Assembly: GCF_900187365.1 (NCBI RefSeq) | Contig: NZ_FYDG01000009.1 | Coordinates: 62,001 to 126,000 of the forward strand | DNA: 64,000 nt | Direction of reading: 5' to 3' | Origin: Rhodoblastus acidophilus | GTDB taxonomy: Bacteria; Pseudomonadota; Alphaproteobacteria; Rhizobiales; Beijerinckiaceae | Shown: positions 14,184 through 50,477 of the stretch, one piece after another | How the letters are laid out: each line of letters begins with the position of its first letter | Numbering within the stretch: position 1 is the first letter of the stretch | Program-made: the position numbers and the translations under genes | The notes under the pieces: model-generated | The model's database searches: none | Seen by the model: only the letters and a program-made list of their open reading frames with translations | Told to the model about the DNA's origin: nothing

Positions 14184-14189
14184 AGATCA

Positions 14190-30319: not shown

Positions 30320-31242
<923 letters not shown>

Positions 31243-31294
31243 GAGCGCGCACTCTCCTGCGTGAATTGCTTTTTCTGAAAACAAGGGCGACCCG

Positions 31295-31340: not shown

Positions 31341-31360
31341 TCCCAGGTTCTGGACTGGTC

Positions 31361-32713: not shown

Positions 32714-32983
32714 ATGTCGATCACGGCAGAGCGCAAGACCGCGCTCATCCAGGAATACGCCACCAAGCAGGGCGATACCGGCTCCCCGGAAGTTCAGGTC
32801 GCCATTCTGACCGAGCGCATCGTCAACTTGACCGAGCATTTCAAGACTCACGCGAAGGACAACCATTCGCGTCGCGGTCTGCTCAAGCTGGTTTCGCTGC
32901 GTCGTCAGCTCCTCGACTATCTCAAGAAGAACGACGAGGGCCGCTATCGCACGCTGATCGAGCGCCTCGGCATCCGCCGCTAA
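32714..32983 (+). CDS. rpsO: 30S ribosomal protein S15
   Basis: The 89-residue protein is the standard S15: [35 protein letters not shown], and [20 protein letters not shown], ending RLGIRR. S15 binds 16S rRNA early in 30S assembly and in some bacteria represses its own translation. The ATG at 32714 follows AAGGA. It precedes pnp, the standard rpsO-pnp arrangement, with a terminator-like hairpin between. Confidence 0.98.
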
Positions 32984-32991
32984 ACGCTTCC

Positions 32992-33022
32992 GCGGCCGGC
33001 ATTTCGCCGGCCGCTTCTTCTT
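32992..33022 (+). terminator. Terminator or attenuator between rpsO and pnp
   Basis: A perfect 9-bp stem (GCGGCCGGC with GCCGGCCGC) and a 5-base loop is followed by TTCTTCTT. It lies 9 bases after the rpsO stop. The interrupted T-run suggests partial read-through into pnp. Confidence 0.75.
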
Positions 33023-33052
33023 AGGGCCGCGCTTTCGCCGCGGGATTTCCGA

Positions 33053-33143
33053 AAAACGGTCGCCGTTTTCTGGAGAACATCCCGCCAGTCGCGCCGGCCC
33101 CCAACTGTGGCGGCAGGGGCCGCCACGAAGGTCCGACCGGACC
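33053..33143 (+). promoter_or_regulatory. Structured leader of pnp: three hairpins
   Basis: Three stems follow in order: AAAACGG/CCGTTTT at 33053-33069 (loop 3), GTGGCGGC/GCCGCCAC at 33107-33126 (loop 4) and GGTCC/GGACC at 33130-33143 (loop 4). They end 83 bases before the pnp start. In E. coli the pnp leader hairpin is cut by RNase III and lets PNPase repress itself; a similar role here is an inference. Confidence 0.5.
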
Positions 33144-33226
33144 ATGGCAGGATCACCGGACGCCGCGCACCACGGCCTCTCGTCGTCTTGCACATGGTTG
33201 GCGCGACCCAACACAGAGAGAGACGA

Positions 33227-35392: not shown

Positions 35393-35413
35393 GTTCGGCC
35401 CTCCCCATGCGAA

Positions 35414-35442
35414 AGGCGGCCCCAGCGGCCGCCTTTTTTTTT
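35414..35442 (+). terminator. Terminator after pnp
   Basis: An 8-bp stem (AGGCGGCC with GGCCGCCT) is followed by nine T. It lies 22 bases after the pnp stop codon. Confidence 0.92.
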
Positions 35443-35456
35443 GCCTGCCTTGTTCC

Positions 35457-37325
35457 TCAGTTCGCGCTTTTCTCGCCCGCGCCGACGATTTCATAGACGT
35501 GAACGGGCGTCTGCGCGACCGGCGCCGGCCGCAGCCAGCCGGGCACCTCGCCTTGCGCGATCCGCGCCGCCAATCCCTGCGGCGCCCAGGTCTTCCAGGA
35601 CGCCGCCGCGTCCGCCCCCCAACACAGGATCACGTAGCGCGCGCCCGCCGCCCGCGCCAGATGTTCCGCCTGATCCGGCGGCGCGAACAAAATGTCGAGC
35701 GCGGCGCGATTGCCGTGATTGTCGCGATGATAGGGCGCGGCCATCACGCCGAGATCGGTGTGGGCCAGCAGATAGGCGCCCGGCGAGATCATCGAGACGG
35801 CGAGGCCCGGCGCCAGAGTCCGCAACGGCTCGTAGCTGGCCGAACTCATGCAGCGGTCGCGCCCGGCGCCGACATTGTCCGGCGCGGCGGGTCCGACTTC
35901 CGGCAGTTCGACCATCAGGCCCATGCTCGATGAGGCGTAAAGCGCGACCAGGGCGGCGAGCGCGCCGGCGAGGCCGCGCCTCGGGCGGGAGACGCGGCTT
36001 TCGATGAAGGCGCGAACCGATGCGGCGGGGGCCAGCAGGCCGAGCGCGACCAGCGGCATCACCGTGGAGAACACCCGGACATGCAAGGCGCCCAGCAAGC
36101 CGCCCAGCGCAATCTGCCCCGCCAGAAACGCCCAGCGCGCCCGATCCGAACCCGACGCCCGCCAGACGCCGAACAGCGCCGCCAATAACCCGGCCAGCGT
36201 CGAAACGACCAGCAGCAGCGCGAGATTGGCGTCGCGCTGCGCCTGCCGCAGGATCGAGATAACTTCGGGATTGGGGTCGAGCCAATAGGTCCGCACCAGC
36301 GGATCCATACCGGAATAGGGATCGACCAGACAGGCGACGGGAATCAGCAGCGCCAGCGGCGCGGCGGCGCCCGCGCCCGCCAGGGCCGCCGCGACGACGC
36401 GCCGGCGCAAACCTGCGGCGGCGGCGAATCGCGCGATCAGGACGTAAGCCGCGCAACCCGCGAGAATGGCCAGGACGTGAGGGCCCGACAGCGCGTCGCA
36501 AGCGGGGATCGGCCAGCGCGCCGGCGCGACGGTCGCCCCGAACAGCGGCGTCAGCGCGCCGGCGAGGCCGCAGCCAAACCCGGTCAGCGTCGCGCGCGCC
36601 TCCGCGCCGCGCCAAAGGTACCGCGCCAGCGGCGCGGCGGCGACAACGACGAGAAACGGCAGGTTCTCCAGCCCGATCGCCAGGCTCAACGCGGTCATCG
36701 CCCCGGAAAGAGCAGCCGGCCTGAAGGCGTCGGTCGCGCCGAAACAGGCGGCCATGGCCGCGACCGCGACCACAAGGGCGACGATTTGCGGCGCGTGGTG
36801 ATCGATGCGGCCAGCGGGAAACTGCCACCACAGCACGCCGCAAAAAACCATGGCGGCGACGCCGAACAGCCGCATCGAGCGGCCGGCGAACACGCGCGCG
36901 GCGTAAAAGCCCGCGCCGAACAAGGCGAGCGCGAGCAGGGCCGGAAAGACGATGCGGGCGGCGCGCTCGGCCAGAGCGCCATCGAGGAACAGCCGGAAGG
37001 CCAGGATCAGCGCGGCGAGCGGCGCATCGACGACGCGGCTCCAATGCGAAACCATGCCGCGCGGCGGGTCGAACCGCCACACCGTCATGTCGTACCAGGA
37101 TTGTCCCGCCAGCAGGTCGCGCACCTCAACCATGCGCGCGGCGTCGTCGGTGTCGTGAAACGAGCCGTGACGCCAGACGTCGATCACGCGGTCGGCGCCG
37201 AGAAGGAAATAGACCGCCAGCGCCAGCAGCCCGACGATCCAGGGCGCCCAGGCGTCCCATCCGGGTTTCGCGCGCTGGCTTGCGGAGAAGGCGTCACGGG
37301 CCGGGCTTGGGGTTTGTCGCGTCAC
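35457..37325 (-). CDS. Polytopic membrane protein, GT-C-like (possible oligosaccharyl/mannosyl-type transferase)
   Basis: The roughly 622-residue protein has a dozen or so membrane helices over residues 25-460 and a soluble C-terminal domain of about 150 residues. The first outer loop carries an acidic D-T-D-D motif (GSFHDTDDAARMVEVR, near residues 58-61), as in GT-C glycosyltransferases, and another loop carries RIDHHAPQIV (DHH near 175-177), which recalls the DHH-type motif of archaeal AglB. It may glycosylate a lipid or protein on the periplasmic side; the acceptor is unknown. GTG 37325 is preferred (GGAG upstream); TTG 37388 is the alternative. Confidence 0.65.
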   Translation of the reverse strand: MTRQTPSPARDAFSASQRAKPGWDAWAPWIVGLLALAVYFLLGADRVIDVWRHGSFHDTDDAARMVEVRDLLAGQSWYDMTVWRFDPPRGMVSHWSRVVDAPLAALILAFRLFLDGALAERAARIVFPALLALALFGAGFYAARVFAGRSMRLFGVAAMVFCGVLWWQFPAGRIDHHAPQIVALVVAVAAMAACFGATDAFRPAALSGAMTALSLAIGLENLPFLVVVAAAPLARYLWRGAEARATLTGFGCGLAGALTPLFGATVAPARWPIPACDALSGPHVLAILAGCAAYVLIARFAAAAGLRRRVVAAALAGAGAAAPLALLIPVACLVDPYSGMDPLVRTYWLDPNPEVISILRQAQRDANLALLLVVSTLAGLLAALFGVWRASGSDRARWAFLAGQIALGGLLGALHVRVFSTVMPLVALGLLAPAASVRAFIESRVSRPRRGLAGALAALVALYASSSMGLMVELPEVGPAAPDNVGAGRDRCMSSASYEPLRTLAPGLAVSMISPGAYLLAHTDLGVMAAPYHRDNHGNRAALDILFAPPDQAEHLARAAGARYVILCWGADAAASWKTWAPQGLAARIAQGEVPGWLRPAPVAQTPVHVYEIVGAGEKSAN

Positions 37326-37406
37326 CCGCGTCTCCAGATGTATCTCGCTCCGGTCATGGCGGCCGGGCTTGAAAGAATGATGATGCAAAGATATCCGGCG
37401 CCAGCC

Positions 37407-37495: not shown

Positions 37496-38266
37496 ATGAA
37501 AGTGGTGATCCTGACCGGCGGGATGGGCACGCGGCTCGCCGAGGAAACGGCGGTGCGGCCCAAACCCATGGTCGAGATCGGCGGGCGGCCGATTCTCTGG
37601 CACATCATGAAGATCTATTCGGCGCATGGATTCAATGAATTCGTGATCTGCCTCGGCCACAGGGGCTATTACATCAAGGAATTCTTCTCGAACTATTTTT
37701 TGCACATGTCGGATGTCACGTTCGACATGCGCGCCAACCGGATGGACGTGCATCGGGAAAACGTCGAACCCTGGCGCGTCACCCTGATCGACACCGGCGA
37801 GAAGACGATGACCGGCGGCCGCATCAAGCGGATCCGCGACCATCTCGGCGACGACGACGTGTTCGCCCTGACTTACGGCGATGGCGTGGGCGACGTCGAT
37901 CTCATCAGCCAGCTTGCGTTTCACCGCGCGCATGGAAAACTCGCCACAGTCACCGCCGTACGCCCGGCCAAAAGGTTCGGCGCGCTGCGGCTCGATGGCG
38001 ACCGCGTCACCAGTTTCACCGAAAAGCCCGACGACGAGGGCGGCTGGATCAGCGGCGGCTTCTTCCTGCTGTCGCCAAAAGTCTGCGACCTGATCGAGGG
38101 CGACGACACCGTGTGGGAGCGCGAACCGATGAGCCAACTGACCGCCGCCGACGAGTTGCGGGCCTTCATTCATCCGGGGTTCTGGGCGCCGATGGACACG
38201 TTGCGCGACAAGATTTTTCTCGAAGACCAATGGGCGAGCGGCGCCGCGCCATGGAGGATCTGGTGA
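37496..38266 (+). CDS. rfbF: Glucose-1-phosphate cytidylyltransferase
   Basis: RfbF makes CDP-glucose from CTP and glucose-1-phosphate, the entry to CDP-deoxyhexose synthesis. The 256-residue protein has MKVVILTGGMGTRLAEET, VRPKPMVEIGGRPILWHIM and LTYGDGVGDVDL. Start and length match the family. It leads the operon; the next gene starts 16 bp before its stop. Confidence 0.95.
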   Translation: MKVVILTGGMGTRLAEETAVRPKPMVEIGGRPILWHIMKIYSAHGFNEFVICLGHRGYYIKEFFSNYFLHMSDVTFDMRANRMDVHRENVEPWRVTLIDTGEKTMTGGRIKRIRDHLGDDDVFALTYGDGVGDVDLISQLAFHRAHGKLATVTAVRPAKRFGALRLDGDRVTSFTEKPDDEGGWISGGFFLLSPKVCDLIEGDDTVWEREPMSQLTAADELRAFIHPGFWAPMDTLRDKIFLEDQWASGAAPWRIW

Positions 38267-39396
38267 TCGACGCGGCCTTCTGGCGCCGGCGGCGCGTTTT
38301 CGTCACGGGACATACCGGCTTCAAGGGCGCCTGGCTGGCGCTGATGCTGGCGCGGCTGAACGCCGAAACCACCGGCTACGCGCTCAATCCGCCGACCGAC
38401 CCGTCGCTGTTCGACCTGCTGGCCGTCGGCGACACGCTTGAGGACCTGCGCGGCGACGTCAACGATCTCGAAAACCTGCGTCGCGCCATGGTCGCCGCCG
38501 ATCCCGAGATCGTCATCCACATGGCGGCGCAGCCGTTGGTCAGGGCCGGCTACGCCGAACCCGTCGCCACCTTCCAGACCAATGTGATGGGCGTGGTCAA
38601 CGTGCTCGAAGCCGCGCGCGCCTGCACGTCTCTCAAGGCCGTGGTGAACGTCACCACCGACAAATGCTACGACAATCGCGAAGCGCCGTGGGGCTATCGC
38701 GAGACCGACCGGCTCGGCGGCCGCGATCCCTATTCCGCCAGCAAGGCCTGCGCGGAACTCGTCACCGCCTCCTATCGCGCCTCGTTTTTCGACCATGGAG
38801 CCACCCTGGCGACGGCGCGCGCGGGAAACGTGATCGGGGGCGGCGATTTCGCCGCCGACCGCATCCTCCCCGACGCCGTGCGCGCGTTCACGGCCGGCCG
38901 GGCGCTGGAGGTGCGCGCGCCAAAAGCGGTGCGGCCGTGGCAGCATGTGCTGGAGCCGCTGTCGGGCTATCTGATGCTGGCCGAACAGGCGGCGCGTCAG
39001 GGCGAGACGTTCGGAGACGGCTGGAATTTCGGACCGGGCGCCGAAAGCGAGCAGGACGTCGAAACCCTGCTGACCCGCTTCATGGCGGCCTGGGGGCCGG
39101 AGGCGCGCTGGCTGCCGGATCGCTCGGCCCATCCGCACGAGGCCGGCGTGTTGCGGCTCGACGCCAGCAAAGCGCGCGAAAAACTCGGCTGGACGCCTCT
39201 GCTTAGTTTTAACGAGACGGTGGAATGGACCGCGCGCTGGTATCGCGCCCATGCGGCCGGGGCGGACCTGCGCGCGCTCACCTTCGACCAGCTCGACGCC
39301 TATCTCGGTCAGCGCGTGCGGCTGACCTCTCCGTTTTCCAAGCAGGATCGCGGCGCGGCCGGGGAGGAACGGGATGCAGCCCAAAGACTCGCCTGA
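38251..39396 (+). CDS. rfbG: CDP-glucose 4,6-dehydratase
   Basis: RfbG removes water from CDP-glucose to give CDP-4-keto-6-deoxyglucose. The 381-residue SDR has the Rossmann motif [16 protein letters not shown] near residue 20, [12 protein letters not shown], and the catalytic Y-x3-K in [16 protein letters not shown] 38251 gives the family N-terminus, inside the rfbF 3' end; GTG at 38263 would be the only close alternative. It overlaps rfbH by 23 bp. Confidence 0.95.
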
Positions 39397-40714
39397 AGCC
39401 GCCGCCTTGCGCGCCCAAATCCTCGATCTGGTCGGGCGCTATCACGATCTGGCGCATCGCCGACCGGCCTTTTCGCCGGGCGCCGGCGCGCCCGTTTCCG
39501 GCCGCGTCTATGGCGCGCGCGAGATGCAGACGCTGGTCGATTCGGCGCTGGATTTCTGGCTGACCACCGGGCGCTTCAACGACGCGTTCGAACAAAAACT
39601 CGCCGCGCGCGTCGGGGCCAGATATGCGCTGACGGTCAATTCCGGCTCCTCCGCCAATCTGGTGGCGTTCTCGGCGCTGACATCGCCGCGTTTGAAAGAG
39701 CGCGCGATCCAGCCGGGCGACGAGGTCATCACCTGCGCGACCGGCTTTCCCACCACCATCAATCCGGCGATGCTCTGGGGCGCGATTCCCGTCTTCGTCG
39801 ACGTGGACATTCCCACCTACAACATCGACATTGGCGCGCTCGAATCCGCCGTCGGGCCGAAGACCAAAGCGGTGATGGTCGCGCACACCCTTGGAAATCC
39901 GTTCGACGTCAAGGCGATCAAGGCTTTGTGCCACAAGCACAATCTCTGGCTGATCGAAGATTGCTGCGACGCGCTCGGGGCGACGGTGGACGGCCAACAC
40001 GTCGGGACGTTTGGCGATGTGGGGACGCTGAGTTTCTACCCCGCGCATCACATCACCATGGGCGAGGGCGGCGCGGTCTTCACCAGCAATCCGCTGCTCG
40101 CCAAGATCATGGAGAGCTTTCGCGACTGGGGCCGCGACTGCTATTGCGCGCCGGGCAAGGACGCCACCTGCGCCAAGCGTTACGGCTGGAAGCTCGGCGA
40201 CCTGCCGCCGGGCTATGACCACAAATATGTCTATTCGCATCTCGGCTTCAATCTGAAGATCACCGACATGCAGGCGGCGGTGGGGCTGGCGCAACTGGAG
40301 CGCCTCGAAGATTTCATCGCGGCGCGCCGCCGCAACTTCGACCGCCTGCGCCAGGGCCTGCGTTCGCTCGAAGACGTGCTGATTCTCCCCGAGGCGACGC
40401 CGGGGACGGAGCCGTCCTGGTTCGGCTTTCCGATCACGCTGCGCGAGACCGCGCCGGTCACGCGCGACGCGCTGGCGCAGCATCTCAATGCGGAGAAGAT
40501 CGGCACGCGCCTGCTGTTCGGCGGCAATCTCGTGCGCCAGCCCTATATGAAGGGCCGCGACATCCGCATCGCCGGTTCGCTCGCCAACGCCGATATTGTG
40601 GTTGACCGGACGTTCTGGATTGGCGTCTATCCCGGTCTCGAAGCCGGCCATATCGACCATATGATCGCATCCATCGGCGCGGCCTTGCGCCAGCCTGCAA
40701 GCCAGAGCGCGTGA
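39374..40714 (+). CDS. rfbH: CDP-4-keto-6-deoxyglucose-3-dehydratase (E1)
   Basis: RfbH (E1) is a PMP-dependent iron-sulfur enzyme that removes the C3 hydroxyl of CDP-4-keto-6-deoxyglucose. The 446-residue protein resembles aminotransferases but replaces the Schiff-base Lys with His ([15 protein letters not shown]), the E1 hallmark, and has the cysteines of the [2Fe-2S] site in [15 protein letters not shown]. The reductase partner E3 (RfbI/DdhD) is not in the window. The next gene starts 1 bp after its stop. Confidence 0.94.
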
Positions 40715-40715: not shown

Positions 40716-42275
40716 GTGGCCGCGTCGGACGCTCTGACGCCCGCCCGGCGAGGCGCCACCAACCGCGCCGTCTTCAACGCGGCGGCGCTGGTTTTCGTCG
40801 CGGGCGACGCCCTTTGGGCCACGGGTCTGGCCACGCCGGCGATGATCGCCGTTCTGCTCGGCTGCTGCGGCGTCGCCGCGCTGCTGCTGACCAGCCGCCC
40901 CACCGGCGCGCGGCTCGACGCGCCCATCGACAAGCGCACGCTGGCCGTGTGCGGATTCGTCGCGCTCCTCCTGTGCCTGCTGGGCGGGGAGACGCATTTG
41001 TTTTGGGCCAACGCCGACTGGCTGACGCGCGACGCGGTGCTGGCGGATGTCGCGCGCCATATCGCGCCGGTCTATTACCGGATTGGCGAGGACACATTCT
41101 TCCTGCGCGCGCCGCTCGGCATGTACATGATTCCGGGCCTTGTCGGGCATGCGCTCGGCCTGACGGCGGCTCATGTCGCGCTGCTGGCGCAAAACACGCT
41201 GCTGCTCGCGATTTTGCTTTATCTCGTCGCGGTTCTCGGCAAGGGACTCGCGATGGCGCTGCTGCTGGCGGCGTTCAGCGGGCTCGACCTGGCGCCATGG
41301 TTTTTCAACATCCTGCGCGCCTACGCCCAGACCGGCGTATGGGCCGTCCCCCCCGATCCCGAATGGTGGGCGCGGCTGTTTCAATATTCGGCCCATGTCA
41401 CCCAGATTTTCTACGTGCCCAACCACGCCTTTCCCGGCTGGTTCTTCGCGCTGGCCACGGTGGCGGCGGCGCGGCGCGAACTCGATCTCGGCGCGCTCGG
41501 CGCGATTTTTGCCGCGCTGATCCTGTGGTCGCCGCTGGCCCCGATGGCCGCGCCCGCCCTGCTCGGTTTTTTCCTGTGGCGCGACCGCGCGGAGGCGGCG
41601 AAATCGCCGCGGTTCTGGCTCGGCGGCGCGGCGGCGGCCTGTTTCGCGCCGGTCGCGCTCTATCTGACCGCGAACGCCGGCGCCATCGCCCACGCGCCCA
41701 TCGCGCGCTCGCCCGGCTTCTGGGGCGTCTATCTCCTGTTCCTGCTGGTCGAAATTCCGCACGCGCTGTTCCTGGCCGCGCTGTGGCGGCGCGTCGACGC
41801 CGAATTGAAACCGCTGCTGGCGATTTCCGCCGTCCTTCTGGTGGCGCTGCCGCTTTACAGCTTCGGCCCGAGCAACGACCTGGCGATGCGCGGCTCGATC
41901 ACGCCCCTGTTCCTGCTGGCCTTCATATTTCTTTCAACGCTACTCGGGCTTGGCCCGGCGCAAAGGCGCGCGCGCCTCGCTGGCCTCGCGCTGGTCATCC
42001 TTGGCGCCGGCGTCCCGCTGATCCAAATCTGCGAAGTCGTTCTGCTGCCCCGCTTCGCCATCAGCGCCTGCAACCTGATCACCACGACCGATGAATTGAC
42101 TCCCGGCGGCGTTCCCGCCAATTACGTCGCGCCGACCAGCCGCGCGCCGCAATGGCTCCTGCGTCCGCCCGGCCAACAGACGTCGTTCGAAATTTTGGGC
42201 GCGGGACGCTGCTGGCCGGACCATCCGGCGCTGGGCGGCGACCGGCCGCGCGACGGCAAGGAGCCGGGACAGTGA
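40716..42275 (+). CDS. Polytopic membrane protein of unknown function in the CDP-sugar operon
   Basis: The 519-residue protein has about 11 hydrophobic helices and no recognised motif. One loop has YYRIGEDTFFLRAPLGMYM and another, MNILRAYAQTGVWAVPPDPEWWARLFQY-like, is Trp/Tyr-rich. The layout resembles GT-C or Wzy-type envelope polysaccharide proteins, but no catalytic signature is clear. GTG 40716 is taken as the start because it directly follows the rfbH stop. It overlaps the GtrA gene by four bases. Confidence 0.7.
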   Translation: MAASDALTPARRGATNRAVFNAAALVFVAGDALWATGLATPAMIAVLLGCCGVAALLLTSRPTGARLDAPIDKRTLAVCGFVALLLCLLGGETHLFWANADWLTRDAVLADVARHIAPVYYRIGEDTFFLRAPLGMYMIPGLVGHALGLTAAHVALLAQNTLLLAILLYLVAVLGKGLAMALLLAAFSGLDLAPWFFNILRAYAQTGVWAVPPDPEWWARLFQYSAHVTQIFYVPNHAFPGWFFALATVAAARRELDLGALGAIFAALILWSPLAPMAAPALLGFFLWRDRAEAAKSPRFWLGGAAAACFAPVALYLTANAGAIAHAPIARSPGFWGVYLLFLLVEIPHALFLAALWRRVDAELKPLLAISAVLLVALPLYSFGPSNDLAMRGSITPLFLLAFIFLSTLLGLGPAQRRARLAGLALVILGAGVPLIQICEVVLLPRFAISACNLITTTDELTPGGVPANYVAPTSRAPQWLLRPPGQQTSFEILGAGRCWPDHPALGGDRPRDGKEPGQ

Positions 42276-42697
42276 TCCAACCCGCCGCCGCGTTGATCCG
42301 CCGTCTCGCCCAGGCGCGTTTCCTGCGGTTCCTGGTCGTTGGCGGCCTGAACACGGTCTTTGGATACGGGCTGTTCTATCTGCTGCTGCGCCTGAGCGGC
42401 TCGGCGCTGTTCGCGCTGACGCTGGGCACGGTCATCGGCGTGCTGTTCAATTTCGTCACGACGGGCGCGCTGGTTTTCCGCACCATGGAGCGGCGCCGGC
42501 TGGCCAAGTTTCTCGGCGTTTACGGGATCGTCTATCTCTACAACGCCGCCGGCCTGACGATTCTGCAAGCGATGGCCCTCGATCCCGCGCTGGCGGGATT
42601 GCTGCTGCTGCCCGGCGCCGTGGCGATCTCCTATGGTCTCAACCGATCCTTCGTCTTCAATCGCGCGCCTGCGGTCGAGGGCGGGCCTCATCCCTGA
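42272..42697 (+). CDS. GtrA-family membrane protein
   Basis: A 141-residue GtrA-like protein with four membrane helices: RFLRFLVVGGLNTVFGYGLFY, FNFVTTGALVFR, and ISYGLNRSFVF near the end. GtrA proteins are thought to flip undecaprenyl-linked sugars for periplasmic glycosylation. The GTG at 42272 overlaps the stop of the previous gene (GTGA) and AAGGAG lies upstream. It could serve the GtrB-like glycosyltransferase at 43771-44706. Confidence 0.9.
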   Translation: MIQPAAALIRRLAQARFLRFLVVGGLNTVFGYGLFYLLLRLSGSALFALTLGTVIGVLFNFVTTGALVFRTMERRRLAKFLGVYGIVYLYNAAGLTILQAMALDPALAGLLLLPGAVAISYGLNRSFVFNRAPAVEGGPHP

Positions 42698-42714: not shown

Positions 42715-43758
42715 ATGCCTGACCCCCTGCGCTGTTGCGCCGCCTGCGGAAGCCCGACGCCCGAGATCGTCGTCCTCGGCGGCCTCAGGCGAAGCCGTTG
42801 CCTGTCCTGCCATCATTCCCAGCGCATCGACGTCGAAACCTTCGACTACGCCGGCTTCGCCATGGGCGCGACCGGGGCCGCCCCCGAACGCGTGGCGGCG
42901 CAGGCGGACTTCATCGGGGCGGAAGCCTTCGCCGGCGCGCGCGCGCTCGAAATCGGCTGCGCCGCCGGCGACCTCGCTCAGGAATTGCGTCGCCGCTTTG
43001 CTTTCGCCGCCTATCACGGGATCGAGTTTTCGCCGGCCCGGGACGTCGCCGCCCGGCGACTCGACCGCGTCTTCTCCGCGTCATTGGAAGATCTGTTGGC
43101 TTCCGGCGAAGTCCAGGCCGAAACATACGACCTCGTGCTGTCGTCGCATTGCCTGGAGCATCTGGAAGATCCCTCGGTCCTGATCGCGGCGATGAAGCAG
43201 GCGATGAAGCCCGGCGGCTCGATCTTTATCGAAACGCCCAATGGCGGCGGCCACCCCCGGCTTTCCTTCGACGACAACCGCACGCATTTGCATTTCTTTT
43301 GCGCGTCGTCGCTGACGCGCCTGCTGGCGCGGCATGGCCTGGAAAGCTTCAAGGTTGAAACCGGCGGCAGACTCGACGCGCGTTATTCCGATTCATTGCG
43401 CCTGCTCGCGCGTCCGTTGCGGACGTTCGCGCCCGACCCTTCCGCTCTTTCCGGGCATCCCCTTCTCGCGCGGACGGATCGTCTGGTTGTTTGGGGCGCC
43501 GGCCGCATGGTCGATGAAATGCTCGCGCATTTTTTCGACGCCGCGCGGATCGCGTTCTTCGTGGACAAGGACGAGCGCAAGCAGGGCGGCCTGCGGCTGG
43601 GCCGGCCCGTCAAAGCCCCGCACGCGATCGACACCGGCGAAGGCTGGACCGTTCTCATCAATTCCATCGAGAACGAACAGGCCATACGCGAGGAGATCGC
43701 CACCCGGTTTTACCGGCGCGTCTGCCGCGTCATCGCGCTGTCCGAACTGCTGGACTGA
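42715..43758 (+). CDS. Zinc-ribbon class I SAM methyltransferase with C-terminal Rossmann-like domain
   Basis: The 347-residue protein has a zinc-binding site in the first 35 residues (C8-x2-C11 and C29-x2-C32), then motif I ALEIGCAAGDLAQEL near residues 76-90, an SSHCLEHLEDP motif, and a C-terminal Rossmann-like segment DRLVVWGAGRMVDEML. This three-part layout is that of sugar C-methyltransferases of the TylC3/NovU group. With the CDP-keto-sugar enzymes upstream, C3 or C4 methylation of a CDP-keto-deoxyhexose is plausible. No substrate is proven. Confidence 0.75.
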   Translation: MPDPLRCCAACGSPTPEIVVLGGLRRSRCLSCHHSQRIDVETFDYAGFAMGATGAAPERVAAQADFIGAEAFAGARALEIGCAAGDLAQELRRRFAFAAYHGIEFSPARDVAARRLDRVFSASLEDLLASGEVQAETYDLVLSSHCLEHLEDPSVLIAAMKQAMKPGGSIFIETPNGGGHPRLSFDDNRTHLHFFCASSLTRLLARHGLESFKVETGGRLDARYSDSLRLLARPLRTFAPDPSALSGHPLLARTDRLVVWGAGRMVDEMLAHFFDAARIAFFVDKDERKQGGLRLGRPVKAPHAIDTGEGWTVLINSIENEQAIREEIATRFYRRVCRVIALSELLD

Positions 43759-43770
43759 AACAACGCTGGT

Positions 43771-44706
43771 TCAGTCAAAGTTGATGCGCTCGCGCTCGAC
43801 CACCAGCGGGAAGCCTCTGGCGTATTTCAACAACAGCCCGACATATTCGCCAATAAGCCCGAGCGCCAGCAATTGGACCGAGCCGAAAAAGAACGTCGCC
43901 AGCAGAATGGGCGTGACGCCGAAAGGCACGCGGCTCCAGAACAGCAGCTTGATCCCGGTATAAACAAGGGCGGCCAGCAGACTGAAGAAGGCGACCACGA
44001 ATCCGGTGACAGTCATCAGCCGCATCGGCGCCTTGGCGTAGGTGGTCAGGCCGATCAGGGCGAAATCGACGAGATCGAACAGGCTGTGACGCGACTTGCC
44101 ATGCTTGCGCAGCGGCTGGTCATATTCGACCACCGCGCGTTCAAAACCGATTTCACTGACCAGACCGCGAAAATAGGGTTCGGGTTCGCCGAGCTGGCTC
44201 ACGACATCCATGAATTTCCGGTCGTAAAGCCCGTAGCCGATGAAATTGGGGATTTGCTCGACGCTGGAAAGGCGCTTGATCAGCAGATAGAAACTGCGGC
44301 GCGCCAAGCTCATCAGCCGTCCCTCGCCGGCGCCGCGCCGCACCGCGATCACCACTTTTCGGCCGGCTTCCCACAGACGGGCCATCTCCGGCAGAAGGTC
44401 GGGCGGCGTCTGCAAATCCGCGAGAACGCAGGTGACCGCATCGCCGCGCGCCTGCAGCATGGCGTGGAAGGGCGAGCGTTGCGGCCCGAAATTGCGAGCG
44501 TTGACGATGATCTTCACCCGCTTGTCGCGCGCGGCTATGTCCTTGAGAATGGCGACGGTGCGGTCCGTCGAGCAATTGTCGATGAAAATGTGCTCATAGG
44601 CGTAAGGGGCGAGCTCGCCCTCCATCACCGTCCGGCAGGCCTCGTAACATTCGGCGATGCCTGCCTCTTCGTTGAAGCAGGGCGTGACAATGCTGATGGT
44701 TTTCAT
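43771..44706 (-). CDS. Family 2 glycosyltransferase, GtrB-like (DPM1 type)
   Basis: The 311-residue enzyme has an N-terminal GT2 domain (MKTISIVTPCFNEEAGI, NCSTDRTVAIL, ADLQTPPDLLPEM) and two C-terminal membrane helices, the GtrB/DPM1 layout. It should load a sugar onto undecaprenyl phosphate on the cytosolic side. The YFRGLVSEIGF and HGKSRHSLFDLVDFA motifs fit. It is last of the leftward operon, and is convergent with the methyltransferase gene 12 bp away. Confidence 0.9.
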   Translation of the reverse strand: MKTISIVTPCFNEEAGIAECYEACRTVMEGELAPYAYEHIFIDNCSTDRTVAILKDIAARDKRVKIIVNARNFGPQRSPFHAMLQARGDAVTCVLADLQTPPDLLPEMARLWEAGRKVVIAVRRGAGEGRLMSLARRSFYLLIKRLSSVEQIPNFIGYGLYDRKFMDVVSQLGEPEPYFRGLVSEIGFERAVVEYDQPLRKHGKSRHSLFDLVDFALIGLTTYAKAPMRLMTVTGFVVAFFSLLAALVYTGIKLLFWSRVPFGVTPILLATFFFGSVQLLALGLIGEYVGLLLKYARGFPLVVERERINFD

Positions 44707-44715
44707 GAAAAGTCC

Positions 44716-46116
44716 CTAAACCGGCCCGCTCAACGCCCGCAGCTCGGACAGGGAGATCAGCCGGTCGTCGATGTAATAGTCGCCGGCGGGCTTGCCGAAG
44801 CGCAGCTCGTGATATTTCAGCCCCCATTGCGCGAACTGGTCGCGCGTGAGCTGCGCCCAGTCGATCCCGGTGGCCGAGCCGCGCGCGGTGAACATGACGA
44901 TCCGGTGGCCCCGGTCGTAAAGCCGATTGACGATTTCGATCGTCCCGGTGAGCGGCGTGCTGAGTTTGTAGTCGTTGCCGGGCGTGAGGCTGGCGACCAC
45001 GCCGTCGACATCGACGACAAAAGTCAATGTCTTGCCGTCGGCCTGCGCGTTGCGATCGACCGGCGCGGGCCGCGGCGCCGTCGCCTGCTGGCGCGCGAAA
45101 AGCGCGGTGCGGGCGATCGCCTGTTCAAGCGGCGTCCAGGCGTCGAGCCCGAGCGCGCGCGCCCTGTCGATCGACGGAATGTAGCGCGAGCGAAAACCCG
45201 GAACGCCTGCCGGCTGCGCGATCTTCACCCCGGGCGCGCCGAGGGTTTTCGCCACGAGCCGCGCGAGTTCGGCGATGGAAACCTCCGCGTCGGAGCCGAC
45301 GTTATAGGCCGCCCCGCTCTCGCCTTCGACCAGCAGTTTGATCAGCCACGCGGCGAGGTCGGCGGCGTAGAGATAGGAGCGCAGCGGCGTCCCGTCGCCC
45401 TTGACCACGATCTCGCGGCCCGCCAGCGCATCGGCGATGAAATTGCCGATGGCGAAATGGCCGTCGAGCGGCAGGCCCGGCCCGACAAAGGCGAAGGCGC
45501 GGGCGACGACCGTTTCCAGGCCGTCGCGGGTCGCAAGGGCGCAAAAATGTTCCGCAAGCCGCTTCGCCTGTCCATAGGCGGTGCGCGGATCGAGCGGATC
45601 GCAGGCGCCGGGATGATTTTCGGGGATGTTGGCGATGTCGTGGGGCTGCGCGCCATAAACCGCGCCGGAACTCACATAGAGCAGCCGTTCGACCCCGGCC
45701 AGCGCGGCGAAATCCAGCACGCGCCGCGTGCCGTCCACAATCGAGCCGATCAGACGGCGCGGATTGCGGTCGGCTTCGGCGCTGGTGTCCGTCGCGGCAT
45801 GAATCACATGGGTGAAGCGACCCTTGGGAAATTCGAAACAGCTGACGTCGCCCTCGCAGAATTTTAGCCACGGCAGAGCGGCGAAGTCCGGGTGTTCAGC
45901 GCAAAAATCGCGGGGCGCGCGGGACAGAGCGGTGACCTCGCAGGCGGCGATGTCCGCCGTCCGGGCGTAGGCCAGCAAGGCCAGCAGCCAGCGCCCGAAA
46001 AACCCGGTGCCGCCGGTGATGAACAATGCGGCGCCGTCGAGTTTTTTCAGCGCCGACCCGATGCGGCCGCAAGCCTGCGCGAGGTCGGAGACCGCGAATC
46101 CGTCCACTGTTTGCAT
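44716..46116 (-). CDS. SDR epimerase/dehydratase fused to a HAD-type phosphatase domain
   Basis: The 466-residue protein joins two enzymes. Residues about 30-340 are an extended SDR with LFITGGTGFFGRWLL, YVSSGAVYG and the YGQAK catalytic pair. Residues about 363-466 form a HAD domain with motif I FVVDVDGVVASL (D369, D371), motif II MFTARG, a Lys near 442 and motif IV YYIDDR. The SDR likely acts on a nucleotide or acyl sugar, and the HAD domain on a sugar phosphate. It lies 1 bp after the ThDP enzyme's stop. A His-Ala-Gln linker joins the domains. Confidence 0.82.
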   Translation of the reverse strand: MQTVDGFAVSDLAQACGRIGSALKKLDGAALFITGGTGFFGRWLLALLAYARTADIAACEVTALSRAPRDFCAEHPDFAALPWLKFCEGDVSCFEFPKGRFTHVIHAATDTSAEADRNPRRLIGSIVDGTRRVLDFAALAGVERLLYVSSGAVYGAQPHDIANIPENHPGACDPLDPRTAYGQAKRLAEHFCALATRDGLETVVARAFAFVGPGLPLDGHFAIGNFIADALAGREIVVKGDGTPLRSYLYAADLAAWLIKLLVEGESGAAYNVGSDAEVSIAELARLVAKTLGAPGVKIAQPAGVPGFRSRYIPSIDRARALGLDAWTPLEQAIARTALFARQQATAPRPAPVDRNAQADGKTLTFVVDVDGVVASLTPGNDYKLSTPLTGTIEIVNRLYDRGHRIVMFTARGSATGIDWAQLTRDQFAQWGLKYHELRFGKPAGDYYIDDRLISLSELRALSGPV

Positions 46117-46117
46117 G

Positions 46118-48004
46118 TCAACTCTTGGGCAGCAAATGCGCCGGCACGTTTTCCGAAGCGGGATCGAGCGGCGCGATCATGTTGGCGCGGAATTCGTCGC
46201 GCGGCAACAGCGGCGACATGTCTTCCAGCGGCATGGACAGGATCGAGCCGTCTTCCTTGAACAGCGCCGCCGATTTCGGGAACAGCGCCTCGTTCTCGAC
46301 CACGCGCACGTCGATCAGCAGCGGCCCGCCCCGATGCGCCACGGCGCGCGCAATGCCGGCGTCGAGATCGGCGGCGTCTTCGATGACGAAGGCGTCCCAG
46401 CCGAACACTTTGGCGAGGGCGGGCAAGTCGGGCAGGCCGAGCCGGGCTTCCGGTCCCGTTCCGACATAGCGCCCGTCGAAATAATTGCGCTGGGTGGCGC
46501 GGATCGAGGCGTAGCCGCGATTGTTGATCACGAACATGCGCAAGGGCAGGTTCTGGCTGGCGATGGTCTGCATTTCCTGCAGGTTCATCATCAGCGAACC
46601 ATCGCTTTCAACGCCAAAAAACGGCCGGCGGTCGGACGCCATATAGGCCCCGATCATCGCGGGCATGCCATAGCCCATCGCGCCAAGCCCCGATGTCAGG
46701 AACACGCGCTGGCCCGGCTTGTTGGCGAAGCCGGTGTAGAAGAACTCAACGCCCAGCCCCGACGACCCCGTGACGATCAGCGCGTCTTCCGGCAGCCCGT
46801 CCGACAGCGCCTTGGTCAGGTGGAAATGGCCGATCTTGCCGGAATCCGGGAACGGCGTGGCGTCCAGCGGATATTTGCGTTTCCATTCGGCGCAGCGGTC
46901 GAGCCAGACGTCGAGCCTGCGCGCCGGCTGCCGCCGGGCGAGACGCAGCAGCGTTTCGACAAAGTCTTTCGCATCCGCCTGGATCTTGCGGGTGATGCCG
47001 GAATCCTCCGGAAACTTGTTCAGCTCGGCCGGATCGACATCCACCACGATTTTTTTGGCCGAGCGGGCGAATTTTTGGGGATTGTAGGCCGTGACCACAT
47101 TGTCGAGCCGCGCGCCGATGGACAGCAGCAGATCGCAATTCTGCACCGCGAAATTGGGCGCGCGCAATGCGACCGTTCCCGGCTTGCCCACGCTCAGGCG
47201 ATGGCTTGAAGGGATCAAGTCCATGGCGTTCCAGGTGGTGACCACCGGAACGCCGAGCGTTTCATAGAGATCACGGAAAGCGTCCGCCGCGCCGGCGAGC
47301 CGCACGCCATGGCCGGCGAGCAGCAACGGGCGTTCCGCCTTGCGCAAGTCTTCAAGGACTTCGCGCGCGAAACCCTCCAGATCGGGCGAAAGCGTCGTCG
47401 CCTCCGGCGTGAAGCCGCGCAGCGCCGCCGGCTCGATCTGACTGTTTTGCACGTCGAGGGGAATGTCGAGCCAGACCGGCCCACGCCGCCCCGTCGTGGC
47501 GAGGTGAACCGCCTTTTCCAGATGGAAGCGGATGTCCTGGGGATCGAGCACGGTCACGGCGTATTTGGTGATCGGCGCCGCCATTTTGACGATTTCGACC
47601 TCCTGCGGCCCCATCTGGCGCACGCCGCTCGCGCCGATAAGATCGGCGCGCTTGACCTGCCCCGAGAGGATCAGCAGCGGAACGGATTCGATCCAGGCCC
47701 CGGCGCAGCCGGTGATGGCGTTGGTCGCGCCGGGTCCGGTGGTCACCACGGCGCAGCCCAGGCGGCCGTGGACGCGAGCATAAGCCTCGGCCGCGATGCT
47801 CGACGCCTGCTCATGATGATTGGGCACATAGTCGAGTTCGCTCGACTTGCCAAAGGCGTCGACCAGGAACATGGCGCCGCCGCCCGGCACCAGGAACACG
47901 GTTTTCACGCCCTGCGCCGCGACGAAGCTTGCGACGTAATCCGCGAGGCGCATGGAGGCCGGGACGGTTTCGGCTCCCTCCGCCTTGATGGTCTGGAGGG
48001 TCAT
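46118..48004 (-). CDS. ThDP-dependent enzyme of the acetolactate-synthase superfamily
   Basis: The 628-residue protein has the three ALS-type domains. The catalytic Glu is E65 in NHHEQASSIAAEAYARV; GCAVVTTGPGATNAITG lies in the PYR domain; the ThDP/Mg motif is ESDGSLMMN...INNRGY in the C-terminal domain. It is not the regular IlvB: no IlvN follows and it sits in a glycan operon. YerE, the ThDP enzyme that adds a two-carbon unit to CDP-4-keto-3,6-dideoxyhexose to make yersiniose, has the same fold and is a candidate model, as the CDP-sugar enzymes lie nearby. It starts 2 bp after the NeuB stop. Confidence 0.82.
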   Translation of the reverse strand: MTLQTIKAEGAETVPASMRLADYVASFVAAQGVKTVFLVPGGGAMFLVDAFGKSSELDYVPNHHEQASSIAAEAYARVHGRLGCAVVTTGPGATNAITGCAGAWIESVPLLILSGQVKRADLIGASGVRQMGPQEVEIVKMAAPITKYAVTVLDPQDIRFHLEKAVHLATTGRRGPVWLDIPLDVQNSQIEPAALRGFTPEATTLSPDLEGFAREVLEDLRKAERPLLLAGHGVRLAGAADAFRDLYETLGVPVVTTWNAMDLIPSSHRLSVGKPGTVALRAPNFAVQNCDLLLSIGARLDNVVTAYNPQKFARSAKKIVVDVDPAELNKFPEDSGITRKIQADAKDFVETLLRLARRQPARRLDVWLDRCAEWKRKYPLDATPFPDSGKIGHFHLTKALSDGLPEDALIVTGSSGLGVEFFYTGFANKPGQRVFLTSGLGAMGYGMPAMIGAYMASDRRPFFGVESDGSLMMNLQEMQTIASQNLPLRMFVINNRGYASIRATQRNYFDGRYVGTGPEARLGLPDLPALAKVFGWDAFVIEDAADLDAGIARAVAHRGGPLLIDVRVVENEALFPKSAALFKEDGSILSMPLEDMSPLLPRDEFRANMIAPLDPASENVPAHLLPKS

Positions 48005-48006
48005 GG

Positions 48007-49536
48007 TCAGTCGATCCAGTGCCGCAACAGCGTCTTGCGCTCGGCGTTCCCGCCGATGGCGGGGTCGGTGTAGAAGGAATCGCCGACGAAATGGGTCGAG
48101 GAGATCTCCTCGAACACCGCGCCGGTCTGGCTGCGGAAGGCGTGGCGCATGCCCGGCGTGATGGTGACCACCGCGCCGGGGCCGCAGACGCGTTTCACGC
48201 CGTCGAGCAGCAGCTCCAGTTCGCCGTGCAGAACGTGGAACGTCTCTTCCTTTTTCTCGTGATATTGCTCGGGATGCGTCTGGCCGGGCAGAACGACGAT
48301 CAGCTTCTTGCAATAGTGACGGTTGACGACGGTCACCATGGTGATGCCGAATTCGTCGAAGCGCTCGATGCCATAATGGTGGGAAATTTCCAGCTCGGCT
48401 TCGCCGGGCACGACGCCACGGCTCTGGTCGAGCAAAGCTTTGACCCGATCGACGATGGAGCGCACCTTGGCCCGCACTTGCCTCAGCTCGGTGTTCTCAG
48501 CGGTGACCGCCGCTTGGGCGGGAATGTCGCAGGTGGCCTGGAACTGGCTGTATTTCGACCAGTCGTTGGCGGTGATCGCAGCGGATTGGCAGGGGATGGC
48601 GAAGAACACATCCTCGTCGCGCAGCCGCTCGCCCGCCTTGATCGCGCGCTTGGCGAACACGCCGCGGCGCAGACCGGCAAGCGCCTCCAATTCCCCGGCG
48701 CTCGGCTCGATGCGCGCGCCTTCGAGGCCCGCCATCGCATAGGCCTGCCGCGCCGCCTCCAGCCAGGCGCGCGCCTGGGCGGGATTGGCCGAATAATCGT
48801 TCAGCGCATAACGCTCGGTGGCGACGCCGACGTGCTTCTCGAAAATGCTGGCGCCCTTGGCGACGGCCATGACGACCGGCAGGGTTTCGGCGGGGTCTTC
48901 ATGGGTCGAATAGCCGACGCGCAAATCGGCGTAGCGGGCCTTCAGCACGTCGATCTGGTTGAGCTGGAGCTTTTCGCGCGGCGTCGGATATTGCGCCACG
49001 CAGGCCATCAGCGAAAAGCTCTTGTCGCGATGGCGCATGAAGGCGACGACATTATCGAGATCGTTGAGCCTGACCCCGGCGGTCGAGCCGATCACCGGCA
49101 TGTCGGTCTGGGCGATCTTTTCCAGCAGCGGCCAATCGGTGAACGAGCAGGAGGCGATTTTCACAATGTCGAAACCATCCTCGACGATGCGATCCACCGA
49201 AGTCTCGTCGAAGGGCGTGCACATGGCCAGGAAGCCATGCGCCTTGATGCGCTCAACCAGCTGGCGGGTTTGGGCGCGGTCGAGCCGGGTTTCGGAGAAA
49301 CGCTTGATGTATTTAATGTCCATCCGATCGACGAAATCGGGATGAATGAAGCTGTCGAGATCGCGATATTGCAGTTTGAAGGCGAAGCTGAAAGGATAGC
49401 CTTGAGCGGCGGCGGCGATCTCGTCGATGATGCGCAGGCCGTGCGCCACATCGCCCATGTGGTTGTTGGCGAGTTCGAAAACGAACAGGCGCTCCGGGAG
49501 GTTTTTCTTGCCCGGGACGGCGGGTTGAAAGTTCAT
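48007..49536 (-). CDS. NeuB-type nonulosonate synthase with SAF domain and C-terminal cupin
   Basis: The 509-residue protein starts as a sialic-acid synthase: FELANNHMGD, KLQYRDLDSF, MCTPFDETSVD, VKIASCSFTDWPLL, and GSTAGVRLNDL and FEKHVG further on. A SAF-like domain follows (LRRGVFAKRAIKAGERLRDEDVFFAIP), then a cupin (about residues 385-490) with HPEQYHEKKEETFHVLHGE and TPGMRHAF. NeuB enzymes condense phosphoenolpyruvate with a six-carbon amino sugar to a nine-carbon acid. The cupin is not part of NeuB, PseI or LegI, so the product may be a different acid. It leads the four-gene operon. Confidence 0.87.
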   Translation of the reverse strand: MNFQPAVPGKKNLPERLFVFELANNHMGDVAHGLRIIDEIAAAAQGYPFSFAFKLQYRDLDSFIHPDFVDRMDIKYIKRFSETRLDRAQTRQLVERIKAHGFLAMCTPFDETSVDRIVEDGFDIVKIASCSFTDWPLLEKIAQTDMPVIGSTAGVRLNDLDNVVAFMRHRDKSFSLMACVAQYPTPREKLQLNQIDVLKARYADLRVGYSTHEDPAETLPVVMAVAKGASIFEKHVGVATERYALNDYSANPAQARAWLEAARQAYAMAGLEGARIEPSAGELEALAGLRRGVFAKRAIKAGERLRDEDVFFAIPCQSAAITANDWSKYSQFQATCDIPAQAAVTAENTELRQVRAKVRSIVDRVKALLDQSRGVVPGEAELEISHHYGIERFDEFGITMVTVVNRHYCKKLIVVLPGQTHPEQYHEKKEETFHVLHGELELLLDGVKRVCGPGAVVTITPGMRHAFRSQTGAVFEEISSTHFVGDSFYTDPAIGGNAERKTLLRHWID

Positions 49537-49682
49537 CGCACCTTATCCTCATGGCGCAAGAGGCGGCCGCCCCCGGATCGCATCGGCGCGCGGACGACGC
49601 GGCCCACGGAATTGCGGACGCGCCCGCGAGGGTTTATCGAGCATTCCGTTAGGTAACTGGGAAAATGGTTAACGAAATGGTG

Positions 49683-49697
49683 TTAATGACCCGTTAA
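49683..49697. promoter_or_regulatory. CtrA-type box between NeuB operon and GST gene
   Basis: TTAA-N7-TTAA, with a further TTAAC at 49669-49673 that forms a third half-site. It lies 147 bases upstream of the leftward NeuB operon start and 88 bases before the rightward GST gene. Confidence 0.5.
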
Positions 49698-49784
49698 GGC
49701 TTTCGTTCAAACGTGAGGGCTTCTTGGGGGCGAGGCGCGCTTCTATAGGGTGCGTCCCGCCGAGAAAAGACTTACAAGTCGGGC

Positions 49785-50477
49785 ATGTTCCAGCTTTATC
49801 ATCATCCGCTCTGTCCGCTCTCGCGCTTCATCCGCCTGTCGCTCGGCGAATACGGCGTTGAAGCCGAATTGATCGAGGAACGGGTCCACGAGCGCCGGCG
49901 CGAGTTTCTCATGCTCGATCCGGCCGGCCAGACGCCGGTTTTGGTGACGGAGGACAATCACGTCATTCCGGGCGCGGGCGTCATTGCGGAATGGCTGGAT
50001 GAAATCCTGGGCGAGTCGCTGGGCATTCACCGGTTGCTGCCGGTTTCGCCGCGCGAGCGGGTGGAAACCCGTCGCCTGATGGCCTGGTTCAACGACAAGT
50101 TCTTCGGCGAAGTCTCCAATTGGCTGGTGACGGAAAAAGTTTATAAACGCTTCATGGCGACCGAAATCGGCAGCGGCGCGCCCGATATGGACGTGGTGCG
50201 CGCGGCGCGCGCCAATGTGCGCCATCATCTGCGCTATATTTCCTGGTTGGCGCAGAACCGGAACTGGCTCGGCGGCGACCGCATGACCTATGCCGATCTC
50301 GCGGCGGCCGCCCATCTTTCGAGCGTGGATTATCTGGGCGACGTGCCGTGGGACGAGGAAGAGCCGGCCAAGCAATGGTACCAGCGCGTCAAGAGCCGAC
50401 CGAGTTTCCGCCCGCTGCTGGCCGACCGGGCGCCGGGCGTGGCGGTCAATCCGATCTATACGGAAATGGACTTCTAG
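49785..50477 (+). CDS. Glutathione S-transferase family protein
   Basis: The 230-residue protein has the thioredoxin-like N-terminal domain (MFQLYHHPLCPLSRFIRLSLGEYG, then GQTPVLVTEDNHVIPGAGVIAEWLDE) and an all-helical C-terminal domain (NWLGGDRMTYADLAAAAHL). The active-site motif is PLCPLSR, so a Ser or Cys is in the catalytic position. Its substrate is unknown. It comes directly before queG, a common neighbourhood in Rhizobiales. Confidence 0.9.
   Translation: MFQLYHHPLCPLSRFIRLSLGEYGVEAELIEERVHERRREFLMLDPAGQTPVLVTEDNHVIPGAGVIAEWLDEILGESLGIHRLLPVSPRERVETRRLMAWFNDKFFGEVSNWLVTEKVYKRFMATEIGSGAPDMDVVRAARANVRHHLRYISWLAQNRNWLGGDRMTYADLAAAAHLSSVDYLGDVPWDEEEPAKQWYQRVKSRPSFRPLLADRAPGVAVNPIYTEMDF

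Follow-up and report, generated by a model that had tools for sequence, protein, structure and literature searches.

What might be made by a compact group of genes that joins a sialic acid synthase-like (NeuB) protein to a thiamine diphosphate (ThDP)-dependent enzyme? The question is raised by a locus of Rhodoblastus acidophilus, located on contig NZ_FYDG01000009.1 within a stretch of 64,000 nucleotides that was analysed as a whole and is hereafter called the window. Four genes on its reverse strand encode a NeuB-cupin fusion protein (positions 48007–49536; 509 aa), the ThDP enzyme (46118–48004; 628 aa, counted from the ATG 2 bp past the NeuB stop, a longer TTG-started open reading frame overlapping NeuB), a short-chain dehydrogenase/reductase (SDR) fused to a haloacid dehalogenase (HAD) domain (44716–46116; 466 aa) and a GtrB-like transferase (43771–44706; 311 aa). 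A first-pass annotation had described these genes, their order and their packing with gaps of 1–10 bp, all of which were confirmed, the gaps read from the sequence being 2, 1 and 9 bp, respectively; the four-gene order was also found beyond this strain. The annotation further proposed a sugar pathway unlike those for neuraminic (Neu), pseudaminic (Pse) and legionaminic (Leg) acids, which we share, with an acid sugar as the end product, which we do not. It left out decisive genes on the opposite strand, rfbF, rfbG and rfbH as well as one for a GtrA-like protein. An acid sugar is probably not what the pathway ends in; most likely the acid serves as a donor and gives up its carboxyl group, since the ThDP enzyme groups with the carboligase JanthE and the known acceptor of the related YerE is what rfbFGH make next door.

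We regard it as probable that the locus specifies a two-armed pathway to a long C4-branched 3,6-dideoxyhexose. The acceptor arm would consist of RfbF (glucose-1-phosphate cytidylyltransferase; 37496–38266; TIGR02623, 426 bits against a cut-off of 300), RfbG (CDP-glucose 4,6-dehydratase; 38263–39396; TIGR02622, 470 against 278) and RfbH (CDP-6-deoxy-4-ketoglucose 3-dehydrase; 39374–40714; NF011936, 713 against 423), which together would yield cytidine diphosphate (CDP)-4-keto-3,6-dideoxyglucose. All three are encoded on the forward strand and exceed their NCBIfam equivalog cut-offs; the CDP-3,6-dideoxyhexose pathway is represented by RfbF, RfbG and RfbH. In the donor arm, the cupin part would convert a ketose, or its phosphate, to an aldose, the NeuB part would form a 2-keto-3-deoxy-4-hydroxy acid from the aldose and phosphoenolpyruvate (PEP), and any phosphate present would be stripped by the HAD part. 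The ThDP enzyme would then decarboxylate the acid and add the resulting acyl anion to the C4 ketone of the acceptor, joining two sugars by a C–C bond, after which the SDR would reduce the new ketone. GtrB would load the product onto a lipid carrier, and a GtrA-like protein and a putative GT-C transferase would place it on a surface glycan. A nucleotide-activating enzyme is thus encoded in the locus, namely RfbF, but it would serve the acceptor sugar.

The donor arm begins with the NeuB-cupin protein, in which Pfam recognised NeuB (132 bits), Cupin_2 (42 bits) and Lyx_isomer (21.7 bits; cut-off 20.8), the NeuB part spanning approximately residues 13–345 and a cupin of the D-lyxose-isomerase fold approximately residues 355–508. 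Of the earlier label 'NeuB-SAF-cupin' the two outer terms were borne out; SAF received no Pfam call at an E-value of 1e-3, and alignments to solved NeuB chains extend through the putative SAF region. An AlphaFold2 model (mean predicted local distance difference test score, pLDDT, 92.6; predicted TM-score 0.77) was compared with solved structures using Foldseek. The NeuB part matched 3g8r with a root-mean-square deviation of 1.1 Å over 335 columns and 54% identity; sialic and pseudaminic acid synthases were also retrieved, with KDO8P synthases lower in the ranking. The cupin part matched D-lyxose isomerase 2y0o (1.9 Å over 167 columns; TM-score 0.70 by target length).

Eight residues, K54, Q56, K126, S151, S210, H212, E233 and H235, which we take to form the PEP/metal site, are invariant in class A, cupin-less A, B and ordinary NeuB sequences, counting rows in which the residue is present and with one X at position 56. 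The active site is intact in this respect. The sugar-side positions differ from those of ordinary NeuB. The position of R314 in Neisseria meningitidis NeuB, presumably the arginine that binds the N-acetyl group, is occupied by I, F, M or W in all 67 class A rows that have the residue (Ile in the window protein); 13 of the 14 ordinary rows carry R or K there. Cupin-less NeuBs differ also at sugar-side positions 79, 131 and 246. With the PEP/metal site kept and the sugar side altered, the NeuB part looks able to condense PEP with a non-N-acetylated aldose, and the formation of an acid from PEP and a sugar, proposed in the first-pass annotation, is likely to be the NeuB step. The protein scored far below the equivalog cut-offs for sialic acid synthase (TIGR03569, 133.6 against 399.65 bits) and pseudaminic acid synthase (TIGR03586, 114.8 against 340.25 bits). 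No NeuC, aminotransferase, acetyltransferase or CMP (cytidine monophosphate)-sugar synthetase was found in the gene set, nor was there, between positions 30001 and 56000 of the window, an above-threshold match to C255, a cluster of CTP_transf_3 cytidylyltransferases. Thus, the operon holds no standard Neu/Pse/Leg set, as had been noted before, and sialic, pseudaminic and legionaminic acids were rejected as products on the cut-offs and the missing partner genes. Bradyrhizose, to which no link was found in the literature searched, was dropped as a candidate.

The ThDP enzyme carries the N, M and C domains of the Pfam TPP_enzyme families, and its best match among solved structures is 8rph (392 bits; 265 bits for the best acetolactate synthase). 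This structure was listed merely as 'thiamine pyrophosphate-binding protein'; we have taken it as JanthE of Janthinobacterium sp. HH01 because its chain has the CDG motif that is special to JanthE according to PMC12247030 and PMC12188165. In a quick tree of 94 rows, computed without bootstrap and with an outgroup that does not form one side of a branch, JanthE stands for the characterised members (YerE itself is absent), and one branch of 76 rows unites the window enzyme with JanthE and with the ThDP enzymes from 70 loci that bear NeuB (Shimodaira–Hasegawa-like approximate likelihood ratio test, 100). The HHEQ and SDG...N motifs of the window enzyme align with HHEQ and CDG...N of JanthE; we take the former to contain the catalytic Glu and the latter to bind ThDP. 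The ThDP-binding motif thus reads SDG (positions 46600–46640, reverse strand) in place of the canonical GDG. Of the earlier description as an 'ALS-like ThDP' enzyme, the cofactor part stands and the kinship to acetolactate synthases does not, given the grouping with JanthE. It is also true that such an enzyme has no part in the Neu, Pse and Leg pathways, but it is a hallmark of pathways to branched 3,6-dideoxysugars. On sequence grounds, we propose that the enzyme is a YerE/JanthE-like carboligase forming a C–C bond between sugars.

What PMC12247030 reports of this class would make a NeuB product a suitable donor. YerE takes activated acetaldehyde from pyruvate and passes it on to CDP-3,6-dideoxy-4-keto-D-glucose. 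Pyruvate is not accepted by ErwE, whose preferred donors are 4-hydroxy-2-oxo acids longer than C4; the preference of MMAR_2332 of Mycobacterium marinum, an enzyme linked with caryophyllose, is similar. The 4-hydroxy-2-oxo head group preferred by ErwE is what a NeuB-type condensation leaves, and would therefore fit a NeuB-made donor. The same source states that product structures are lacking for the vast majority of the more than 200 predicted YerE-like enzymes, and the physiological substrates of JanthE are stated as unidentified (PMC12188165). A search for its own locus in 399 genomes from the order to which Chromobacterium belongs yielded only relatives of 52% and 39% identity.

The alternative that survives best is that two separate sugars are made from a shared surface-polysaccharide locus, the NeuB acid being CMP-activated elsewhere while the ThDP enzyme, like YerE, uses pyruvate and makes a yersiniose-type C2 branch. 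Surface-glycan loci are mosaics, and the genome has two CTP_transf_3 genes on other contigs, one encoding KdsB and the other a PseF-like cytidylyltransferase below the cut-off. In order to see with which genes NeuB-cupin proteins keep company, 84,980 species were scanned, yielding 346 relatives, of which the best 80 were taken; ranking was by similarity to the query and hence favours the subfamily of the window protein. Neighbouring genes were clustered without supervision for 95 loci, 71 of them with a ThDP enzyme (L006, L025 and L030, a duplicate of L022, were left out). After further genomes and controls had been added, 112 NeuB loci were scored, excluding short and duplicate loci (L001, L110–L118, L134–L147, L149 and others), with L023 merged with L022 for the RfbH/RfbF scores; the distance and tree sets also exclude the near-copies L036, L061, L064 and L070.

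Among the 90 NeuB-cupin loci, 68 had a ThDP enzyme nearby, which is more than chance, and 16 had C255; none had both, so that C255 occurs in 16 of the 22 loci without ThDP and in 0 of the 68 with it. In the 95-locus clustering, likewise, C255 (15 loci), a HAD cluster (C227, 11 loci) and a Gfo/Idh oxidoreductase (C365, 12 loci) were all absent from the ThDP loci. This partition speaks against the two-sugar alternative. For 65 of the 90 loci at least 6 kb were available on both sides: 45 had ThDP together with RfbH/RfbF, 6 ThDP only, 1 RfbF only (L084), 12 C255 only and 1 none of these. RfbH/RfbF often lie directly before NeuB in the ThDP loci. Ordinary NeuB loci of the same order had no ThDP enzyme (0 of 13), no RfbH/RfbF over the threshold (0 of 13) and C255 in 7 of 13. 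A Fisher test gave 2e-8, ignoring descent, and the ThDP linkage changes 5 times on the NeuB tree. NeuB-cupin genes that lack ThDP and are accompanied by a cytidylyltransferase, HAD and Gfo/Idh oxidoreductase were seen at L098–L109, L026 and L155–L159; a CMP-ulosonic acid pathway, at least partly without an assignment, is probable for them.

A closer tie between NeuB and the ThDP enzyme was seen when protein distances were compared over 47 loci holding all of NeuB, ThDP, RfbH and RfbF. The correlation was 0.74 for NeuB with ThDP and 0.72 for RfbH with RfbF, and only 0.30 and 0.24 for NeuB with RfbH and RfbF, respectively; the partial NeuB–ThDP correlation was 0.71, and 500 permutations gave 0.29 at most. 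G001 and G006, two genomes from the same genus, have RfbF, RfbG and RfbH that are 84–89% identical to those of the window and a GtrB that is 70–72% identical, but a different NeuB (40–41%, cupin-less) and a different ThDP enzyme (43–44%), and no SDR-HAD. Because NeuB and ThDP distances track each other, and both proteins differ together while RfbFGH are conserved, they look like a matched, exchangeable pair of donor-making and welding enzymes. That NeuB follows ThDP and not RfbH or RfbF, that the two change together within a genus and that only 2 bp part them here also argue against two separate sugars, a possibility that we consider unlikely.

The same genome carries a second cluster of rfbFGH, NeuB and ThDP (L029; contig 53, 159000–177999, at 3148–15957), in which NeuB is fused to a xylose-isomerase-like TIM barrel, an isomerase-type fold unrelated to the cupin; a second, different branched sugar would be expected from it. 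We lean slightly towards a general picture that is widespread and modular: a C8–C9 ulosonic acid would be made solely as a donor, from which the ThDP enzyme would build C13–C14 surface sugars; NeuB–ThDP pairs would be swapped while the acceptor genes stay, the branch differing from pair to pair; and in relatives without ThDP this NeuB subfamily would feed CMP-activated acids.

The remaining fusion protein contains an extended SDR (Pfam Epimerase, 126 bits), proposed to reduce the ketone newly formed in the ThDP step, and a HAD domain of approximately the last 110 residues with the motifs DVDG, TARG, K and DD in its translation. The HAD domain received no Pfam call, and its match to TIGR01689 (EcbF-BcbF) is weak (24.7 bits; cut-off 162); the solved structure 9iqw, a 'capsule biosynthesis protein', was matched at 3.2e-10, which supports membership in the HAD superfamily, not in the EcbF-BcbF subfamily. 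Phosphate removal by this domain, as suggested in the first-pass annotation, is plausible. HAD domains of this type recur fused to a CMP-sugar synthetase beside NeuB-cupin (L094, L096 and L158, the last being the same locus as L113). Moreover, a 202-residue family without Pfam name adjoins NeuB in 19 loci (e.g. L093:1283–1888); HAD motifs are present in this family, and an AlphaFold2 model of it (pLDDT 93.7) matches HAD phosphatases.

Several observations weigh against the two-armed pathway or narrow it. A phylogeny-aware test of the ThDP association with RfbH/RfbF left 4 independent pairs, too few for significance; on average 2.5 of them agreed, 0 opposed and 1.5 showed no difference. In the reverse direction, the ThDP enzyme was searched against 398 genomes of the phylum; 23 matched at 1e-85 including the window's own, leaving 22 loci of other genomes. 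Nine near relatives (59–65% identity) had NeuB in 6 cases, RfbH/RfbF in 7 and the SDR-HAD fusion in 7; two of the three without NeuB end upstream at a contig edge, and the third (L213) has no NeuB within 9 kb upstream. Of 13 distant relatives (33–43%), 8 had RfbH/RfbF and 1 NeuB, and at L153 and L154 a YerE-like enzyme stands beside RfbFGH without NeuB, which also favours two separate sugars. NeuB is dispensable for the YerE-like class as such and belongs to a subset of it, as one would expect if the remaining members take pyruvate or different acids as donors. In principle, the PseF-like cytidylyltransferase is a candidate for activating a NeuB product. Four HAD profiles detected a HAD in only 38 of 75 ThDP loci; removal of a phosphate may not be a general feature of these loci, and for this reason no universal phosphatase step is claimed. 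In the cupin, positions H426, E431 and H465 are retained in all 68 class A rows; the metal ligands of D-lyxose isomerase are, we assume, two His, a Glu and a His, and the first of these is Gln in 47 rows and His in 21, because of which isomerase catalysis is uncertain. Finally, the chemistry is inferred, both for the individual reactions and for the donor's carbon length and the sequence of steps, whereas the gene partnership has good support from gene families, context, conserved active sites and paired evolution. On the contig of the PseF-like gene (L120; contig 29, 428931–429290), the search for NeuB gave no match.

RfbH/RfbF are missing within approximately 10 kb in 6 of the 51 full-flank ThDP loci, which likewise weakens the proposed pathway and lends something to the earlier reading that the end product is an undescribed acid sugar, modified by the ThDP enzyme without CDP-4-keto-3,6-dideoxyglucose as a partner. 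We find this improbable in view of the other 45 loci and of the enzyme class with its known acceptor (PMC12247030). More improbable still is a weld, by the ThDP enzyme, of the NeuB product to some other ketosugar or to a further-changed form of this one: enzymes of the class accept a range of acceptors in vitro (PMC12247030, PMC12188165), and L160 shows a weaker RfbH-like match and no RfbF, but RfbF, RfbG-like SDRs (a cluster that includes other SDRs) and RfbH are the commonest neighbours, in 44, 56 and 54 of the 71 ThDP loci. That the ThDP enzyme is a paralogue of the acetolactate synthase used in branched-chain amino acid metabolism, placed beside sugar genes by chance, was rejected with hardly any doubt: NCBIfam acetolactate synthase models do match, all below cut-off (TIGR00118, 371 against 538 bits), but a true acetolactate synthase is encoded in another part of the genome (L170; 1074 bits, cut-off 974), and the acetolactate synthases of three genomes (L168–L170, named by cut-off) fall outside the JanthE branch of the tree.

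Downstream of rfbH, and like rfbFGH convergent with the four leftward genes, the forward strand encodes three further proteins. The first is a large hydrophobic protein (40716–42275), labelled by eye as a possible GT-C (GtrC-type) transferase; no Pfam or NCBIfam family matched it, and it is 75% identical in R. sphagnicola and 45–51% in G001 and G006. It is followed by a GtrA-like candidate lipid-carrier sugar flippase (42152–42697; GtrA_DPMS_TM, 60 bits, Pfam) and an S-adenosylmethionine (SAM) methyltransferase (42715–43758; Methyltransf_23, 87 bits, Pfam), possibly tailoring the branched sugar, with 68% identity in both same-genus loci (L027 and L028). The GtrB-like transferase (Glycos_transf_2, 95 bits, Pfam; PgfS and PRK10714 models match below cut-off) is proposed to move the branched sugar from CDP onto the lipid carrier. 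A scan of positions 43500–49900 for intrinsic promoters and terminators returned 0 promoters and 1 terminator-like site, fewer than in shuffles. Beside rfbF, on the reverse strand, lie genes for proteins of 997 aa (32501–35494) and 643 aa (35457–37388; hydrophobic by eye) without Pfam family, and further away an ABC-2 transporter pair and an OmpA-family protein (29558–32449, reverse strand), possibly for polysaccharide export. Recurrent additional genes in the 71 ThDP loci encode radical SAM/SPASM proteins (28), C-methyltransferases (33), Nudix-like proteins (22) and X264, a family without any Pfam match (14); they lie downstream of ThDP (L039, L042, L057, L064, L088 and others), which suggests that the branched sugar is modified further.

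Mycobacteria, plant-associated bacteria and phototrophs carry long-branched sugars, caryophyllose among them, on their surfaces, and the gene set would explain the origin of the long side chains on some rare surface sugars; the literature searched gives no source for a branch of the caryophyllose type. If the neighbouring NeuB does supply the donor, predictions become possible for hundreds of loci, the active site of NeuB might serve as a branch-length code, matched enzyme pairs would be available for tertiary alcohols from sugar acids, and NeuB-type enzymes would gain a role beyond CMP-activated acids. Caryophyllose is 3,6-dideoxy-4-C-[D-altro-1,3,4,5-tetrahydroxyhexyl]-D-xylo-hexopyranose (PMC5706390). 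Its branch fits a NeuB-type donor, because the carbon beside the former carbonyl bears no oxygen, as in a 2-keto-3-deoxy acid after decarboxylation and ketone reduction. According to the same source, M. marinum mutants in MMAR_2331, MMAR_2332 and MMAR_2333 all stop before caryophyllose and accumulate LOS-II*, a form without this sugar. At L150 and L151, both from the genus Mycobacterium, the order is NeuB, ThDP, GtrB-like and RfbF, then RfbH and RfbG; on the strength of this order and the mutant phenotypes we predict that MMAR_2331 is NeuB-like. NeuB matches at 1e-20 were found in 8 of 248 genomes of this genus, 5 of them of the cupin type with at least 86% identity. M. gastri, to judge from a reference title, has another C4-branched 3,6-dideoxysugar; its branch, reportedly a 2-deoxy heptyl chain, would be the outcome with a KDO-like acid, although no text stating the structure was found in the literature searched. 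A C4-branched sugar is also the building block of the O-antigen of Rhodopseudomonas palustris CGA009 (PMC9912281).

How does the proposed pathway compare with known systems? The sialic, legionaminic and pseudaminic acid synthases (NeuB, PseI) share the fold and PEP/metal positions of the NeuB part, but their sugar-side residues are different and their equivalog cut-offs lie far above its scores. Within the NeuB subfamily of the window protein, 3g8r, a 'putative spore coat polysaccharide biosynthesis protein E' from Chromobacterium violaceum, is a solved chain of the NeuB part alone with no assigned function. The pathway for 3-deoxy-D-manno-octulosonic acid (KDO; KdsD, KdsA and KdsC) follows the logic proposed here, with an isomerase, a PEP synthase and a HAD phosphatase, and KDO8P synthases are structural matches of the NeuB part; here, in contrast, the isomerase would belong to another protein family and the product would be a ThDP donor rather than a CMP-activated acid. 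JanthE (8rph), the closest solved ThDP enzyme, shares a clade with the window enzyme and has CDG where the latter has SDG; its 52% relative at L153 sits with RfbFGH and without NeuB. Pathways to yersiniose A, erwiniose and caryophyllose likewise combine RfbF, RfbG and RfbH with a YerE-like ThDP enzyme in a lipopolysaccharide or lipooligosaccharide context, and hydroxylated 2-oxo acid donors are known for ErwE and MMAR_2332 (PMC12247030). A link of NeuB to YerE-like enzymes or branched sugars was not found in the open-licence literature searched, the sole match, PMC12247030, making no mention of NeuB. The kind of pathway is known, while a NeuB-isomerase donor module coupled to it appears undescribed in that literature, priority not being established. 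What sets the locus apart from the yersiniose A, erwiniose and caryophyllose pathways is the coupling of a NeuB-type synthase, an isomerase domain and a HAD to the ThDP enzyme, and the new point is that the ulosonic acid would be the donor, not the product.

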